Part shown: piece after piece, positions 21,572-28,115 of the stretch
Numbering within the stretch: position 1 is the stretch's first letter
Layout of the letters: every line of letters starts with the position of its first letter
Assembly: GCF_023952475.1 (NCBI RefSeq)
Contig: NZ_JALHRX010000012.1
Coordinates: 1 to 64,000, forward strand
Length of the DNA stretch: 64,000 nt
Direction: 5' to 3'
Source of the DNA: Cupriavidus sp. WGlv3
GTDB lineage: Bacteria; Pseudomonadota; Gammaproteobacteria; Burkholderiales; Burkholderiaceae
Position numbers and translations under genes: made by a program
Notes under the pieces: generated by a model
What the model saw: the letters and a program-made list of their open reading frames with translations, nothing else
The model's database searches: none
Told to the model about the DNA's origin: nothing

Positions 21572-21880
21572 ATGCAGAACCAGAAGATCCGTATCCGCCT
21601 GAAGGCTTTCGACTATCGCCTGATCGACCAGTCGGCTGCCGAAATCGTGGATACCGCCAAGCGTACCGGCGCGATCGTCAAGGGCCCGGTGCCCCTGCCG
21701 ACCCGCATCCAGCGCTTCGACATCCTGCGTTCGCCGCACGTCAACAAGACCAGCCGCGATCAGTTCGAGATCCGCACCCACCAGCGCCTGATGGACATCG
21801 TCGACCCGACCGACAAGACGGTTGACGCGCTGATGAAGCTCGACCTGCCGGCAGGCGTGGACGTCGAGATCAAGGTGTAA
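21572..21880 (+). CDS. rpsJ: 30S ribosomal protein S10
   Basis: S10 is a 30S head protein and, as NusE, a partner of NusB/NusG in antitermination. The 102-residue protein starts [19 protein letters not shown] and has the [13 protein letters not shown] segment. Start ATG 21572 follows AAGGA. Unusually for the S10 gene, it closes the str operon here: a strong terminator follows and rplC lies 5.6 kb away beyond a catabolic island. Confidence 0.98.
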
Positions 21881-21915: not shown

Positions 21916-21944
21916 AAAACGGCGAACCTCGGTTCGCCGTTTTT
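21916..21944. terminator. Bidirectional terminator rpsJ / araC-type gene
   Basis: ACGGCGAACC (21919-21928) pairs with GGTTCGCCGT (21931-21940) around a 2-base loop, flanked by an A-run on the left and a T-run on the right. It therefore works on both strands, ending rpsJ transcripts from the left and regulator transcripts from the right. Confidence 0.92.
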
Positions 21945-21983: not shown

Positions 21984-22997
21984 TTACACGCTGCCGCGCC
22001 GGCGCAGCGTCTCGGCCGGGCACTCGCCGAACGCGCGCCGGTATTCGGCGCTGAAGCGCCCCAGGTGGGTAAAGCCCCAGCGCAGCGCGGCGCCCGTCAC
22101 CGACGCCAGCGCCGCATCGTTGAGCAGGTCGTGCCGTACCCGGTCGAGCCGGACCGTGCGCAGATAGGCCATCGGGCTCAGCCCGCGATGCTCGCGGAAC
22201 CCCGCATACAGGCTGCGCAGGCTGACGCCCGCGATCTCCGCCAGCAGCGCCGGCGTCAGCGCGGCGGCGGCATGAGCGTGGATATACTCCTCGACCACTT
22301 TCACATGGCGCGGCGCCAGTGGCTTGCCGTGCCGCTGCAGCGCCTCCGACAGGCTGTGCGGCTGCAGCGTCAGCAGCGCGCCGATCACCAGTTGCTCGAG
22401 CTGACATGCCGTCAGCGGATGGCGCGCCGCTGCCGGTGCCACCGACAGCATCTGCGCCAGATACTCCATCAATGAATACCAGCCGGCGCTGCGCCAGGCC
22501 ATGGCGAGCTGGAAGCGCAGCGGCGGGTCCGGGCGATGTCCAAGATAGGCGGCGCACACGCGCTCCAGCGCGCTGCGCTCGATGCGCACGATCAGTTGGT
22601 CGTTGTCCGCGCTCCAGCGCATCAGCAGCGGATCGCTGGGCGTCAGCACGGAAGCGCAGTCCGGCGTCGACACGATCTGCTGCGCGCCGCAACGAATCTC
22701 AGCCTGGCCGCTGAGCGGCATCTGCACCAGCAGGAAGTCTCCGAGCGGCCCCGGGTCGATGGTGACATCGGCTCCGTAGGCGAGCCGGTTGAGCGACACC
22801 GCGCCCAGCGGGGCGTGGTGCATGCGGGCCGACAGGCTGGTCCCGCGGATATCGAGCCGGTGAGGCTTGAAGACCTTGCCGACCGCCGCGCGCGTCTGCC
22901 CGAGGTCGGTCGAGGCGAACACCTGGCGCCCGGCATCGTGTAGCAGGGCATGCGCCAGCGGCGCCGGCGCGCGGGCAGTCGGGGGCAGCTGCAACAT
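21984..22997 (-). CDS. AraC-family regulator of the indole-type island
   Basis: The 337-residue protein has a variable N-terminal sensing region and a C-terminal AraC/XylS DNA-binding domain (about 230-335) with two helix-turn-helix segments, including [26 protein letters not shown] and the terminal [22 protein letters not shown]. The N-terminal half resembles the AraC-binding-like-domain type used by regulators of aromatic catabolism. I chose the ATG at 22997 because AGAGGAG precedes it; 29 in-frame codons upstream lack support. It is transcribed away from the oxygenase genes and is probably their inducer-dependent activator. The effector is not shown by sequence. Confidence 0.88.
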
Positions 22998-23276
22998 GGT
23001 CTCGCTCCTCTGGCGTGGCCGCGGCGCTGGCTGGCGTCCACGGCGGCGGGCCGGGTCGCCATGCGCGCAGCATGGTCCACGCAACCACTATAGCGGATCG
23101 ACCCGCGCGACCCTGGCCTTGCGTTGACCGAAGCCTGACTTTCCTGCACTAATCGGATAGCCGCTGCACTCGGCGGCTAGTTTGCTGCGGTGCGGAGCCA
23201 CCATCATGGGATCCAGCACGGCAGCGCAACCCTCCACCAGCTGTCAGCCAACAGAGAACGACAAGGAGCGCAGGCC
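22998..23276. promoter_or_regulatory. Divergent control region of the island
   Basis: On the plus strand TTGACC (23124-23129) lies 18 bases before ACTAAT (23148-23153). On the minus strand a TATAGT -10 box occupies 23092-23087, with no good -35, as expected for an activator-dependent or weak promoter. CTGCACT occurs twice in direct orientation at 23144-23150 and 23164-23170, 20 bases apart, and TAGCCGC (23158-23164) mirrors GCGGCTA (23173-23179). The repeats could be AraC-type half-sites. Promoter choice is tentative. Confidence 0.45.
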
Positions 23277-24506
23277 ATGGGCCAGACCATCCAGATCCAG
23301 ACCACCGAAGGCAGTTTCAGCGGCTATCTCGCCACCCCGGCGGCGGGCAAGGGCCCCGGCATCGTGCTGTGCCAGGAGATCTTCGGCGTCAATGCCACCA
23401 TGCGCCAGGTGGCCGATTACTACGCCGAGGAGGGCTATACGGTGCTGGTGCCGGACCTGTTCTGGCGCATCGCACCCGGGGTTGAGCTGACCGACCGCGG
23501 CGAGGACTTCCAGCGCGCGCTCGGCCTCTATCAGCAGTTCGACGAAGCGAAGGGCGTGCAGGATGTGGGCGCGGCGCTGGAGACGTTGCGCGCGCGGACC
23601 GAATGCGTCGGCCGGACCGGCGTGCTGGGCTTCTGCCTGGGCGGCAAGCTGGCCTACCTGGCGGCCTGCCGGCTGCCCGACGTGGCCTGCGCAGTGGCGT
23701 ACTACGGCGTCGGCATCGAGCACGCGCTGGCCGAGGCCGTCAACGTGCGGGGCCGCCTGGTGCTGCATATCGCCGAGAAGGACGGCTTCTGCCCGCCGCA
23801 GGCACAGGTGGCGATCCGCGAGGCGCTGGCCGGCCGGGACCACATCGAGGTGTACGTCTATGCCGGCGTCGATCATGCCTTTGCGCGCTCCGGCGGCGAG
23901 CATTTCGACAAGCCCTCGGCGCTGATGGCGCACCAGCGCTCGATCGCCGCGCTGCGCCGCGAGCTGGGTCCGCACTACGACTTCTCGGCGCTGTGGGACA
24001 AGCATTGCGAGTATGAATTCGCCACCCGCGATGTCGATGCGACCATGGCGACGATGGTGGCGCAGCCCTACGTGAACCATATCCCGACCATGACCGGTGG
24101 CGTCGGCCACGCGCAGCTGCGCCGCTTCTACCAAAACCATTTCGTCCACAGCAATCCGCCCGACACCACGCTGATCCCGCTGTCGCGCACGGTCGGCGCC
24201 TCGCAGATCGTCGACGAGCTGCTGTTCTGCTTTACCCACACCAGCGAGATCGACTGGATGCTGCCCGGCGTGCCGCCGACCGGCAGGCGCGTGGAGATCC
24301 CGCTGATCGCCATCGTCAAGTTCCGCGGCGACAAGCTGTACCACGAGCATATCTATTGGGACCAGGCCAGCGTGCTGGTGCAGATCGGCAAGCTGGATCC
24401 CGTGGGTTTGCCGGTGGCAGGCGTGGAGACCGCGCGAAAGCTGCTGGACGAGACCCTGCCGTCGAACACGCTGATGGCGCGCTGGCAGCAGAGCGAAGGC
24501 AAGTAA
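23277..24506 (+). CDS. Dienelactone hydrolase-SnoaL fusion protein
   Basis: The 409-residue protein joins two domains. Residues 1-235 are a dienelactone hydrolase alpha/beta fold with the full set E34 (CQEIFG), C120 (GFCLGG), D169 (EKDGFC) and H200 (GVDHAF), spaced as in classical dienelactone hydrolases. Residues about 240-400 look like a SnoaL/NTF2-like domain (HIPTMTGGVGHAQLRRFY; FTHTSEIDWMLPG). ATG 23277 follows AAGGAG. First of four co-directional genes with a dehydrogenase, an indole/styrene-type monooxygenase and its reductase. From memory, iif-type indole clusters contain a cofactor-independent oxygenase (IifA) acting on 3-hydroxyindolin-2-one; this gene is the best candidate for that role, but the match is inference. 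A ring-cleaving hydrolase is the alternative. Confidence 0.85.
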   Translation: MGQTIQIQTTEGSFSGYLATPAAGKGPGIVLCQEIFGVNATMRQVADYYAEEGYTVLVPDLFWRIAPGVELTDRGEDFQRALGLYQQFDEAKGVQDVGAALETLRARTECVGRTGVLGFCLGGKLAYLAACRLPDVACAVAYYGVGIEHALAEAVNVRGRLVLHIAEKDGFCPPQAQVAIREALAGRDHIEVYVYAGVDHAFARSGGEHFDKPSALMAHQRSIAALRRELGPHYDFSALWDKHCEYEFATRDVDATMATMVAQPYVNHIPTMTGGVGHAQLRRFYQNHFVHSNPPDTTLIPLSRTVGASQIVDELLFCFTHTSEIDWMLPGVPPTGRRVEIPLIAIVKFRGDKLYHEHIYWDQASVLVQIGKLDPVGLPVAGVETARKLLDETLPSNTLMARWQQSEGK

Positions 24507-24595
24507 GCGGGCGGCAAGGAACGGGAGCAGGCCCGCAGAGGCCTGCCCCGCCCCGGACACCGGTGACCGAACCGGCGACCAACAAGGAGACAACC

Positions 24596-25384
24596 ATGAA
24601 GGGATTGCAGGACAAGGTGGCCATCGTCACCGGCGGCGCCACGCTGATCGGCGCGGGCGTGGCACGGGCCTTCATCGAGGCCGGGGCGCGCGTGGCGATC
24701 TTCGATATCGACGCCGCCAATGGCGAGTGCGTCGCCGCGGAACTGGGCCAGGGCGCGCTGTTCATCGCGGCGGACATCACGCGGGACCAGCAGGTCCGCG
24801 ATGCGGTGAGCCAGGTAGCGCAGCGTTTTGGCGGCGTCGATTTCCTGGTCAACCTGGCCTGCACCTATCTCGACGACGGCTTCCGCTCGAATCGTGCCGA
24901 CTGGCTGGCGGCGCTCGATGTCAATGTGGTTTCCGGCGTGATGCTGGCGCAGGCGGTGCATCCGCTGATGCGCGCGCGCGGCGGCGGCGCCATCGTCAAT
25001 TTCACCAGCATTTCCGCCCACGTGGCGCAGACCGGGCGCTGGCTCTATCCAGTATCGAAAGCCGCGATCGCGCAGCTGACGCGCAGCATGGCGATGGACC
25101 TGGCGCCCGACCGCATTCGCGTCAACGCGGTGTCGCCGGGCTGGACCTGGTGCCGCCTGATGGACGAGGTCAGCGGCGGCAACCGCGCCCGCACCGATGC
25201 GGTGGCCGCGCCGTTCCACCTGCTCGGCCGCGTCGGCGAGCCCGACGAAGTGGCGCAGGTGGTGCTGTTCCTCTGCTCCGACCACGCCAGCTTCGTCACC
25301 GGCGCCGACTATGCCGTTGACGGCGGCTACTCCGCCATGGGTCCGGAGCAGAACGTGCCTGCCATCGGCAAGCTGGCCGGCTGA
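24596..25384 (+). CDS. Short-chain dehydrogenase/reductase
   Basis: The 262-residue protein is a classical SDR: cofactor motif TGGATLIG at 12-19, acidic D37 after beta-2 suggesting NAD(H), catalytic Ser near 138-140 (FTSIS), Tyr151 and Lys155 (YPVSK), and the C-terminal DYAVDGGYSAMG. ATG 24596 follows AAGGAG. It lies between the hydrolase fusion and the monooxygenase. In iif-type indole oxidation the SDR (IifB) oxidises indole-2,3-dihydrodiol to 3-hydroxyindolin-2-one; this is the expected role if the cluster is of that type. Confidence 0.9.
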   Translation: MKGLQDKVAIVTGGATLIGAGVARAFIEAGARVAIFDIDAANGECVAAELGQGALFIAADITRDQQVRDAVSQVAQRFGGVDFLVNLACTYLDDGFRSNRADWLAALDVNVVSGVMLAQAVHPLMRARGGGAIVNFTSISAHVAQTGRWLYPVSKAAIAQLTRSMAMDLAPDRIRVNAVSPGWTWCRLMDEVSGGNRARTDAVAAPFHLLGRVGEPDEVAQVVLFLCSDHASFVTGADYAVDGGYSAMGPEQNVPAIGKLAG

Positions 25385-25417
25385 ACGCCCTACCACGATC
25401 CCTCAGGAGACCACCTC

Positions 25418-26659
25418 ATGCACCAACGCATCGCCATCGTCGGAGCGGGCCAGTCGGGCCTGCAAATGGCCCTCGGGCTGCAGGCCCACGGCTACCGCGT
25501 CACGCTGCTGTCCAACCGCACGCCGGCACAGATCCGCGCGGGCAAGGTCATGTCCAGCCAGTGCATGTTCGACCGCGCGCTGCAGACCGAGCGCGAGCTC
25601 GGCCTGAACTGGTGGGACGATGCCTGCCCGCCGGTGCAGGGCATCGGCCTGGCCGTGCCCCATCCCGAGCTGCCCGGCGCCAAGGTCATCGACTGGGCCG
25701 CGCCGCTGGATCGTCCGGCGCAGGCGGTCGATCAGCGCCTGAAGATGCCGGCGTGGATGGAGGCCTTTGTGGCGCGCGGCGGCGACCTGCGCATCCTCGA
25801 TGTCGGTGTCGACGAGCTTGAGGACCTGACCCGCGAGCATGACCTGGTGCTGCTGGCCGCGGGCAAAGGCGAGATTGTCAGCCGTTTCGAGCGCGATGCG
25901 TCGCGCAGCCCGTTCGACCGGCCCCAGCGCGCGCTGGCGCTGACCTATGTGACCGGCATGCTGCCGCGCGAGCCGTTCTCGCGGGTTTGCTTCAACTTGA
26001 TTCCCGGCGTCGGCGAGTACTTCGTCTTTCCCGCACTGACGCTGTCGGGGCCGTGCGAAATCATGGTGTTCGAGGGCATCCCGGGCGGCCCGATGGACCG
26101 CTGGGCCGAGGCCAGCACGCCCGAACAGCACCTCGCTGAAAGCCTGCGCATCCTGCGCACCTATGCGCCGTGGGAAGCCGAGCGCTGCGCGCAGGTGGCG
26201 CTGACCGACGACAACGGCATCCTGTCGGGCCGCTTCGCGCCGACGGTACGCAAGCCGGTGCTGACGCTGCCGTCGGGGCGGCTGGTATTCGGCATGGCCG
26301 ATGCCGTGGTGGTCAATGACCCGATCACCGGCCAGGGCTCCAACAATGCCGCCAAGTGCTGCAAGGTCTATCTCGATGCCATCGTCGGGCACGGCGAGCG
26401 GGCGTACGACCGCGACTGGATGGAACAGACCTTCGCCCGCTACTGGCAATACGCCGGCGATGTGGTGGCGTGGACCAACTCGCTGTTGACCCCGCCGCCG
26501 CCGCACATCCTGGCGCTGCTGGGCGCGGCGGGGCAGGCGCCGGCGCTGGCGGCCCGCATCGCCAACGGCTTCGACAATCCGCCCGACTACTTCCCCTGGT
26601 GGATGGATCCGCAGGCCTGCCACCAGCTGATCGACCACCACCTGCCGCAGGCCGCCTGA
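25418..26659 (+). CDS. Styrene/indole monooxygenase, StyA-like oxygenase
   Basis: The 413-residue protein is a group E flavin monooxygenase. It has the FAD-binding IVGAGQSGLQ (GxGxxG at 9-14), the DRPAQAVDQRLKMPAWMEA and LVLLAAGKGEI segments typical of StyA-type enzymes, and a late DPITGQGSNNAAK segment that contacts FAD. Such enzymes use free FADH2 from a partner reductase to epoxidise styrene or indole. The reductase gene begins one base after its stop codon. Together with the SDR and hydrolase fusion, indole is a more likely substrate than styrene, as no styrene oxide isomerase gene is present. ATG 25418 follows CAGGAGA. Confidence 0.9.
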   Translation: MHQRIAIVGAGQSGLQMALGLQAHGYRVTLLSNRTPAQIRAGKVMSSQCMFDRALQTERELGLNWWDDACPPVQGIGLAVPHPELPGAKVIDWAAPLDRPAQAVDQRLKMPAWMEAFVARGGDLRILDVGVDELEDLTREHDLVLLAAGKGEIVSRFERDASRSPFDRPQRALALTYVTGMLPREPFSRVCFNLIPGVGEYFVFPALTLSGPCEIMVFEGIPGGPMDRWAEASTPEQHLAESLRILRTYAPWEAERCAQVALTDDNGILSGRFAPTVRKPVLTLPSGRLVFGMADAVVVNDPITGQGSNNAAKCCKVYLDAIVGHGERAYDRDWMEQTFARYWQYAGDVVAWTNSLLTPPPPHILALLGAAGQAPALAARIANGFDNPPDYFPWWMDPQACHQLIDHHLPQAA

Positions 26660-26660
26660 G

Positions 26661-27161
26661 ATGGACACCATCAGCCATGCCGCCCCCTCGCTCGATCCGC
26701 GCGAACTGCGCCGCGTTTGCGGCCGCTACGCGACCGGCGTGGCGGTCATCGGTGCCTGTACGCCGCAGCGGCGGCCGGTCGGCATCACCGTCAACTCGTT
26801 CGCGTCGCTGTCGCTGGCGCCGCCATTGATCCTGTGGAGCCTGGCCAGGCATTCGCCCAATGCGGGCCTGTTCGCCCCGGGCGCGCCGTTCGGCGTCAGC
26901 ATCCTGCGCGCCGGTCACGGCGAACTGGCGCGCCGCTTTGCCACGCCGTTGCCGGACAAGTTCGCCGGCATTGGCCATCGCCGCTGCCCGCAAGGCGTGC
27001 CTTACCTGGACGAGGCACTGGCGACGCTGTCGTGCCGGGTCGAGCGCGCCGATCCGGTGGGCGACCACCTGTTGATCGTCGGCGCCGTCGAAGCATTCAC
27101 GGCAGGGGAGGGGGAGCCGCTGGTTTTCTATGGCGGCGACTTCGTCCGCATCGCGGCCTGA
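26661..27161 (+). CDS. NADH:flavin reductase, StyB-like partner
   Basis: The 166-residue protein is of the flavin reductase-like (FMN-binding split barrel) family, with RYATGVAVIGA, the GITVNSFASLSLAPPLILWSL block and a C-terminal GEPLVFYGGDFVRI. These proteins reduce flavin and pass it to a two-component monooxygenase. It starts one base after the oxygenase stop codon, so the pair is tightly coupled, as in styAB. It closes the island; a weak GC hairpin without T-run (27185-27205) follows. Confidence 0.92.
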   Translation: MDTISHAAPSLDPRELRRVCGRYATGVAVIGACTPQRRPVGITVNSFASLSLAPPLILWSLARHSPNAGLFAPGAPFGVSILRAGHGELARRFATPLPDKFAGIGHRRCPQGVPYLDEALATLSCRVERADPVGDHLLIVGAVEAFTAGEGEPLVFYGGDFVRIAA

Positions 27162-27292: not shown

Positions 27293-27321
27293 TTGCCCTT
27301 TCCAAACTGCTGCGATATAGT
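27293..27321 (+). promoter_or_regulatory. sigma70 promoter of the rplC (S10) operon
   Basis: TTGCCC (27293-27298) and TATAGT (27316-27321) are 17 bases apart. The start near 27328 leaves a leader of about 137 bases with small hairpins such as CTACCC/GGGTAG. It would let rplC and following genes be expressed independently of the island and of rpsJ. The remaining gap 27162-27464 holds no gene. Confidence 0.75.
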
Positions 27322-27464
27322 GTAAGGCTACCCATCGGGTAGTGGGCTGGCCATTTTGGCCGCGCGCAGTCTTGTTTAGCGCAAGTCCATCCGCGCACAA
27401 GCGCAAGCACAGTTTTCGTGTATCAATCAGCCCCGGCCAATCGCAGCTGGGAATGGAGCAAACC

Positions 27465-28115
27465 ATGAGCCTTGGCCTTGTAGGTCGCAAGGTTGGCATG
27501 ACCCGTATTTTCACGGACGACGGTGAAGCGATTCCCGTGACCGTGGTCGAGGTCGGCGACAACCGCGTGACGCAAATCAAGACGGACGAGACCGACGGTT
27601 ACACCGCGGTTCAAGTCACCTTCGGCGCACGACGCGCAAGCCGCGTCACCAAGCCGCTGGCGGGTCACCTCGCCAAAGCCGGCGTGGAAGCCGGCGAAAT
27701 CATCCGCGAATTCCGTATCGACGCAGCCAAGGCTGCCGAACTGCAAGCTGGCGGTTCGCTGTCGGTCGACCTGTTCGAAGTCGGTCAGAAGATCGACGTG
27801 CAGGGCGTGACCATCGGTAAGGGCTACGCCGGTACCATCAAGCGCTACCACTTCGCCTCCGGCCGTGCCACCCACGGTAACTCGCGCTCGCACAACGTGC
27901 CGGGCTCGATCGGTATGGCGCAGGATCCGGGCCGCGTGTTCCCGGGCAAGCGCATGACCGGTCACCTGGGCGATGTCACCCGCACCGTGCAGAACCTGGA
28001 GATCGCCAAGATCGACGCAGAGCGCAAGCTGCTGCTGGTCAAGGGCGCCATTCCCGGCTCCAAGAACGGCAAGGTCATCGTTACCCCGGCCGTCAAGGCC
28101 AAAGCCAAAGCTTAA
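27465..28115 (+). CDS. rplC: 50S ribosomal protein L3
   Basis: L3 is an early assembly protein near the peptidyl transferase centre. The 216-residue protein has the N-terminus [16 protein letters not shown] and the [13 protein letters not shown] and [21 protein letters not shown] segments. ATG 27465 follows GGAG; 41 in-frame codons upstream are leader, not coding. It is the first gene of the S10 operon here because rpsJ is elsewhere. Confidence 0.98.

Follow-up and report, generated by a model that had tools for sequence, protein, structure and literature searches.

An iif-type gene set between rpsJ and rplC in Cupriavidus and its reduction to iifA in several lineages

Why should genes for the oxidation of an aromatic compound stand between two ribosomal protein genes, and what has become of them there? 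In a 64,000-nucleotide stretch from Cupriavidus sp. WGlv3 (contig NZ_JALHRX010000012.1, positions 1 to 64,000; hereafter the window), rpsJ and rplC, encoding ribosomal proteins S10 and L3, are separated by five genes: an araC-type regulator gene on the minus strand and homologues of iifA, iifB, iifC and iifD on the plus strand, whose products would convert indole to anthranilate. A first-pass annotation of this DNA had every gene at its correct place, and Pfam matches back its reading of the enzymes and the regulator. Looking further, we found three things that it did not hold: the set at this location characterises the genus and has been lost repeatedly, some relatives keep only iifA, and a second cluster, of the isatin type, lies elsewhere in some genomes. 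It is probable, in our judgement, that iifR-iifABCD was inserted in an ancestor of present Cupriavidus, at the seam where the rpsJ terminator meets the rplC promoter, most simply once, and was then inherited, lost many times and perhaps exchanged within the genus. More tentatively, and at somewhat less than even confidence, we propose that indole breakdown is being rewired, the second cluster replacing the front half of the pathway at the ribosomal locus, with a lone iifA, stripped of its regulator gene and in many cases of its operator, kept repeatedly to serve this cluster in trans or to use the product of neighbouring cells.

The left border, rpsJ (21572–21880, plus strand), has a 96–100% identical counterpart in 56 of the 60 genus genomes, and the right border, rplC (27480–28115, plus strand), was identified as an open reading frame (ORF) of the window and by a homologue search of the genus genomes. 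Between them, the AraC/XylS-family regulator gene (IifR-like; Pfam AraC_binding_2, 6e-49, and HTH_18) occupies 21984–22997 on the minus strand, its start being the ATG at 22997, and the ORF 21984–23084 uses an earlier TTG. The plus-strand genes are iifA (23277–24506), encoding a 409-aa fusion of DLH (2e-41) and SnoaL_2 (1e-7) domains, iifB (24596–25384), encoding a 262-aa short-chain dehydrogenase (adh_short_C2, 4e-61), iifC (25418–26659), encoding a StyA-like monooxygenase predicted to act on indole (Smoa_sbd, 5e-45), and iifD (26661–27161), encoding a flavin reductase (Flavin_Reduct, 2e-34). Hence, a StyA-like oxygenase gene adjoins a flavin reductase gene, iifA- and iifB-type genes lie in one gene run, and the regulator gene stands beside the operon. 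The description of four tightly spaced genes holds for iifB, iifC and iifD, which are tightly packed, and not for iifA and iifB, which are 89 bp apart. By homology to characterised enzymes, whose roles are taken from PMC6221969, PMC4577076 and PMC12538310 (papers that, like the others cited here except PMC4357760, are represented by excerpts), IifC together with IifD would convert indole to the 2,3-dihydrodiol, IifB would convert this to 3-hydroxyindolin-2-one, and IifA is predicted to cleave the latter to anthranilate, which is the course of the iif/ind pathway given in PMC6221969.

We searched the 60 genus genomes with iifC, rpsJ, rplC and iifA, with a threshold of E 1e-90 for the presence of iifA, and scored the locus as a full set in 32, as iifA-only in nine and as an empty spacer in 15; four (G012, G022, G032 and G049) were left unscored. 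In 55 genomes, a single contig carries both rpsJ and rplC. Their gap is 5.5–7.6 kb, with iifC inside, in 31 of these (in G039, iifC is in two pieces), 1.7–3.3 kb in the nine iifA-only genomes and 335–725 bp in the 15 that hold neither iifC nor iifA; the 32nd full set, that of G050, lies on a contig that ends before rplC. By contrast, in all 16 genomes from the two other genera nearest by rpsJ and rplC identity (15 from group g24 and one from g4), the gap measures 301–308 bp with the stop codon counted, which bears out the claim that the set interrupts the order rpsJ-rplC. At E 1e-90, iifA is absent from 16 of 16 genomes of g24 and from the one of g4 (G062).

Within the genus, iifA was found at this threshold only between rpsJ and rplC (40 of the 60 genomes with an intact copy, plus G053 with one in two pieces). 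The iifC copies at the site are 83–100% identical to that of the window (82–86% for the two pieces in G039), and the next copy outside the genus is 73% identical, among the matches listed. In a wider sample, the best 80 of 538 loci encoding a relative, with a fetched flank of at most 10 kb, rpsJ adjoins the set in all 17 loci of at least 85% identity, and rplC lies on the other side in 16 of them, the contig of the 17th ending first; 15 of the 17 are named Cupriavidus, one 'Burkholderiaceae bacterium 16' and one 'Ralstonia sp. 25mfcol4.1'. Neither rpsJ nor rplC was found within the fetched flank in any of the 63 more distant loci. At E 1e-90 or better, an IifA relative is present in 82 of 200 genomes of the family, 13 of them in the genus; in 65 of the 69 carriers outside it, iifA and rpsJ or rplC are either on different contigs or separated by at least about 70 kb (positions compared by hand), and for the remaining four (G067, G073, G103 and G108) no rpsJ or rplC row was listed.

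A few loci depart from these arrangements. In a small family genome (G079, contig C9), rpsJ and rplC lie about 32 kb apart. A second iifA-like gene, 60% identical, is found 5–6 kb upstream of the first in Burkholderia sp. SRS-W-2-2016 (L038:2492–3688) and in Paraburkholderia sejongensis (L045:1545–2741). Within the genus, G030 (L150) has about 2 kb extra between rpsJ and araC, with a decayed tannase/feruloyl esterase gene (PF07519), and the 725-bp spacer of G018 (L154) holds a DUF3079 ORF instead of the indole set.

We then considered the seam itself. A hairpin of 12 pairs (21916–21943) lies between the convergent ends of rpsJ and araC and is T-rich on both strands, in agreement with the bidirectional terminator of the first-pass annotation. 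By count alone, terminator-like matches are not in excess (two observed, against a mean of 2.1 in shuffles); the hairpin recurs in the printed full, iifA-only, empty and near-genus spacers, compared by eye. The new promoter noted before rplC was likewise found, as a sigma70-like TTGCCC-17-TATAGT (27293–27321, plus strand) for rplC and the S10 genes that is also visible on inspection of the spacers printed for relatives. Both elements are already present, by eye, in three empty near-genus spacers (G082, G123 and G062). The leader that precedes rplC (window 27322–27479, ATCAATCAGCCCCGGCCAATCGCAGC) is nearly unchanged, by eye, in the printed genus spacers and those of g24; it is maybe an S10 leader regulatory site. 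A mobile genomic island was rejected, in keeping with the earlier statement that no mobile element borders the set: there is no integrase or transposase among the island ORFs, no long flanking direct repeat and no tRNA border, the four tRNAs of the window all lying before position 2000, far from the island. A small correction concerns the composition, which had been called host-like: GC is 69.3% in the island, compared to 64.8% in the window and about 61% in the ribosomal stretch.

The descent of the set was followed on a tree built from the rpoB of 56 genomes of the genus, from which G048 (hit in two pieces) and G012, G032 and G049 (no hit) were left out. G127 and G069 served as the two outgroups and the root because the stretches from G082, G123 and G062 hold no usable rpoB hit. 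Distances in iifA and in iifC correlate with those in rpoB (Spearman 0.84 over 39 genomes and 0.86 over 30, respectively), which favours the old insertion proposed at first, though the trees disagree in places. The three states of the locus need at least 14 changes on the rpoB tree. Scars matching the iifD end score above all 200 shuffles, which preserve base content only, in three of the 15 empty sites, clearly in G040 (141 versus 33) and G007 (45 versus 34) and narrowly in G004 (34 versus 30); in the other 12 they do not.

Several observations weigh against a single entry followed by simple inheritance. The iifA tree places G058, G017 and G044 with G006, G031, G051, G011, G054, G036, G013 and G010 (support 100), whereas the rpoB tree places them with G055 (support 99), and the rpsJ + rplC tree also separates them from the G006–G010 iifA group; G038 and G046 shift between trees as well. 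Approximately unbiased (AU) tests of the rival groupings (p 0.319 for rpoB, 0.054 for iifA, 0.228 and 0.34 for rpsJ + rplC) do not settle the matter, and therefore neither tree agreement nor exchange is demonstrated. In addition, the set may never have been present in the empty clades that show no scars. Strictly vertical descent is thus weakened by the conflicts among the three trees. In G058, G017, G044, G038 and G046, the grouping of iifA is unlike that of rpoB and of the flanking rpsJ and rplC, as if it had been exchanged between lineages.

These same conflicts, which involve G058, G017, G044, G055, G038 and G046, could mean that the set was inserted independently several times, or spread by exchange of the locus, the seam being a safe landing place. 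Such a history would also suit the other genes found in this seam (the decayed tannase-family gene of G030 and the DUF3079 gene of G018) and the clades with empty sites and no scar. It is nevertheless unlikely, given that the iifC copies of the genus are much closer to that of the window than is the next one listed outside it, that gene order and borders are the same and distances track those of rpoB, that the reductase scars speak for loss and that the AU tests do not reject tree agreement. The simplest reading is that the set entered once, long ago, was lost many times and was exchanged to some extent among lineages of the genus. What is observed here is gene content, location, distribution, conservation and selection on iifA; the substrate, the regulation, the single entry and the reason for the retention of iifA are inferred.

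Does the location matter for expression? The first-pass annotation suggested that the site may tie the set to a highly expressed locus, which does not fit a set placed between a terminator and a promoter and provided with its own regulator and operator. The putative AraC operator, a tandem TGCA-N6-GGNTA direct repeat with a 20-bp period (23145–23179, plus strand), lies upstream of iifA, is the sole tandem in the window and matches the XylS repeat as given in an excerpt of PMC4225500. With the second half-site allowed to begin TGCG, the pair is present in 31 of 32 full-set genomes versus two of eight iifA-only genomes. The best NCBIfam match of the regulator is AndR, with 185 bits, below the cut-off of 350. 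IifR probably activates the operon through binding to the tandem repeat. Alternatively, transcription from tuf-rpsJ could read into the set and tie it to growth rate. This is possible in the iifA-only genome G054, where iifA begins about 80 nt downstream of the rpsJ terminator and the operator is gone; for the full set, the conserved terminator, the araC gene lying antisense between rpsJ and iifA and the set's own operator led us to reject ribosomal co-expression as the main reading, and we hold it to be quite unlikely that location matters in this way.

What remains of the locus in the iifA-only genomes is an iifA gene found at 86–95% identity, intact in eight and in two pieces in G053, the genome of which is 86% complete. 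Scraps lie beside it, namely iifB pieces in G029 and G054 and an araC scrap in G017; G002 keeps most of iifB, together with a reductase match covering residues 12–166 of 166. The breakpoints and remnants differ between lineages. The step between full and iifA-only takes at least six changes on the rpoB tree and five on the iifA tree and, as the right-hand junction of G035 looks (by eye) the same as that of G042 and G017 is the sister of G044, we count about five or six separate reductions. The regulator gene and iifB-C-D would thus have been deleted on either side of iifA in that many lineages, with iifA left intact and under selection. Three points qualify this account: the count of six lineages depends on weakly supported forks, the iifA tree does not resolve G029, G002 and the full-set G030, and the reductase of G002 may be intact as well.

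We next looked at selection on iifA by the ratio of nonsynonymous to synonymous substitution (dN/dS, Nei–Gojobori), computed for 11 of 15 named pairs from 25 of the 40 iifA genes; later comparisons used all 40 intact genes. The iifA-only sisters G017 and G044 give 0.040 (dS 0.38) and G035 and G042 give 0.141 (dS 0.11), compared to 0.049–0.095 in four full-set pairs and 0.072–0.132 in the other five pairs, each of which includes one or two iifA-only genomes. The 114 family-invariant columns of IifA are unchanged in seven of the eight intact iifA-only proteins, with one change in the eighth, and four of the 32 full-set proteins carry changes at these columns. In summary, lone iifA is under purifying selection while the tandem operator decays.

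Could the iifA-only state be neutral decay caught midway, iifA surviving by chance or by means of a nearby promoter? The partial iifB, iifD and araC remnants do look like ongoing erosion, and the operator is broken or gone in six of eight iifA-only loci. However, of the five genes it is always iifA that is intact in the eight complete loci (perhaps with iifD in G002), although deletions struck on both sides, and the dN/dS of the G017–G044 pair is low at a considerable dS, with no stop codon, which makes this explanation very unlikely. That several lineages were worn to the same single gene suggests instead that IifA is useful on its own.

On what, then, would a lone IifA act? A second monooxygenase, 59–63% identical, is encoded elsewhere in 11 of the 60 genomes (L181–L191; G038, G019, G017, G042, G029, G044, G002, G055, G030, G035 and G053, the copy of the last being in two pieces), which include four of the 32 full-set, seven of the nine iifA-only and none of the 15 empty genomes. 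In all 11, the order is regulator, short-chain dehydrogenase, monooxygenase, reductase and FAD (flavin adenine dinucleotide) oxidoreductase, without iifA, and in six an isatin hydrolase and a MetA-type porin then follow; the cyclase matches isatin hydrolase 5nmp (E 5e-119) and the porin is Phenol_MetA_deg. A relative of isatin hydrolase (E 1e-40) is present in 12 of the 60 genomes, the 11 carriers and, as a partial match, G056. G055 holds one cluster of each type. G050 has a third type of monooxygenase (L192, about 40–41% identical) with a reductase and a short-chain dehydrogenase, which stands outside this count and may be the skatole type of PMC13101512.

The two types are also kept apart outside the genus. 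Among the 63 non-genus loci, 40 have iifA without the isatin branch, 19 carry both isatin hydrolase and FAD oxidoreductase without iifA, two have one of these two genes and two have none of the three; iifA together with either was found in none of the 63 within the fetched stretch. Since these loci are the nearest to the window protein, with a flank of at most 10 kb, the separation may be less sharp in a broader sample. According to an excerpt of PMC9871250, the oxidoreductase GS-O appears only in Providencia; homologues of the second-cluster FAD oxidoreductase occur in three Providencia loci (L067, L072 and L073) and in Burkholderiales, which speaks against that statement if the FAD oxidoreductase is GS-O.

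It looks as if 3-hydroxyindolin-2-one had two exits, one through IifA and one through the isatin branch. If so, a strain that has the second cluster could afford to lose iifB-C-D and would still profit from iifA. Lone IifA would then act on 3-hydroxyindolin-2-one from the second cluster or from other cells. Among iifA carriers, the second cluster goes with the iifA-only state (seven with and two without, versus four and 28 of the full sets; Fisher p 0.0004), and it also goes with the presence of iifA (Fisher p 0.026). The phylogeny weakens this part of the argument. With independent pairs, two or three agree with the expected direction and none opposes it on the rpoB tree (p 0.25–0.5), one or two agree and none or one opposes on the iifA tree (p 0.5–1), and for iifA present versus empty, one or two agree and none opposes (p 0.5–1), so that, once phylogeny is controlled for, the pairs are too few and the association does not reach significance. 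Furthermore, no monooxygenase was found at E 0.001 in the iifA-only genomes G015 and G054, and supply from the second cluster cannot therefore be the whole reason for keeping iifA. As a full explanation of iifA retention, the second cluster is accordingly weakened.

The substrate of the set in the window was judged from its monooxygenase. The best Protein Data Bank (PDB) match of IifC is 7z4x, with E 4e-189 over 398 residues, compared to E 6e-41 for StyA (3ihm); we take 7z4x to be the Acinetobacter indole monooxygenase, its depositors' label being putative dehydrogenase/oxygenase subunit. The fingerprint of the (group E) indole monooxygenases is S46-Q48-M50-V/I73-I76-A96, as given in an excerpt of PMC13101512, and the StyA fingerprint used for comparison is N46-V48-H50-Y73-H76-S96. 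IifC of the window carries S46, Q48, M50, V73 and I76, five of the six indole positions; the first five are found in all 31 complete island copies, and the sixth, A96, depends on the alignment (WAAPL at 93–97 in the window). The StyA fingerprint is not that of the window enzyme, which also scores 217 bits against NCBIfam StyA, below the cut-off of 550. Together with the Pfam domains, this upholds the earlier assignment to an iif-type and not a sty cluster, and makes indole the best-supported substrate, as the sequence and characterised homologues suggest. Styrene degradation was rejected on the fingerprint and the nearest structures. StyA/StyB homology and the sub-threshold StyA match would agree with a set that acts on styrene or some other aromatic and takes indole as a side substrate. 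This is highly improbable, given that the closest solved relatives and the fingerprint are of the indole type, that iifA and iifB are present and that the five genes which separate rpsJ from rplC show no family match to a styrene oxide isomerase, the lack of which had been noted at first.

For IifA, residues C120, D169 and H200 do not vary among the 36 homologues aligned and presumably represent the DLH triad positions. Its AlphaFold model (mean predicted local distance difference test score 82.8, with residues 270–274 and 383–409 below 50) matches dienelactone hydrolase over about the first 230 residues. The model does not reveal which of the two domains would carry out the oxygenation, and a sequence search of the PDB for a relative of the SnoaL domain gave nothing better than E 0.03.

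These enzymes are of a known kind, since iif/ind clusters are published and one has been described in Cupriavidus. According to the excerpt of PMC4577076, iifABCDE-iifR of A. baumannii ATCC 19606 shares the order A-B-C-D, a DLH-family IifA of 416 aa, an adh_short_C2 IifB, IifC, a Flavin_Reduct IifD and an AraC regulator whose two Pfam domains are those found here. It also has the iifE porin, a MetA-type domain not found among the five genes between rpsJ and rplC, which is as far as this search extended; in the excerpt of PMC6221969, a role of iifE is ruled out and the gene is accessory. Unlike that cluster, the island has a divergent upstream regulator and sits between rpsJ and rplC. The iif genes of Acinetobacter sp. 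O153 and the ind genes of Cupriavidus sp. SHE, a strain of the same genus as the window, share the gene set and the pathway through the dihydrodiol and 3-hydroxyindolin-2-one (review PMC6221969, excerpt). The whpR-dhoAB-ipoABC cluster of Pseudomonas savastanoi has the same enzymes and an AraC-type regulator, but forms two operons in a virulence island, with a porin and a regulator reported as a repressor (PMC12538310, excerpt). The GS cluster of Providencia rettgeri has a short-chain dehydrogenase, monooxygenase, flavin reductase and AraC regulator, but a PF04199 cyclase (isatin-hydrolase-like) and GS-O in place of IifA, and is thus of the type of the second Cupriavidus cluster and not of the window set (PMC9871250, excerpt). 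Among the matches listed in open-licence PMC papers, we found no description of the rpsJ-rplC location or of the iifA-only state; the location may be in print in the original SHE and O153 papers, and it is mentioned neither in the IDO genome paper (PMC4357760) nor in the excerpt of the KK10 paper (PMC8280871). Hence, what is new here, as far as the papers found go, is the history of the locus and the iifA-only state, the enzymes themselves being published.

The locus amounts to a natural experiment, in which the same pathway within one genus is intact, gone or cut to one gene. It bears on questions left open in the excerpt of PMC6221969, namely the part of isatin in indole degradation and the role of the several clusters of strain IDO. 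The pattern points to IifA as the step of the pathway worth keeping.

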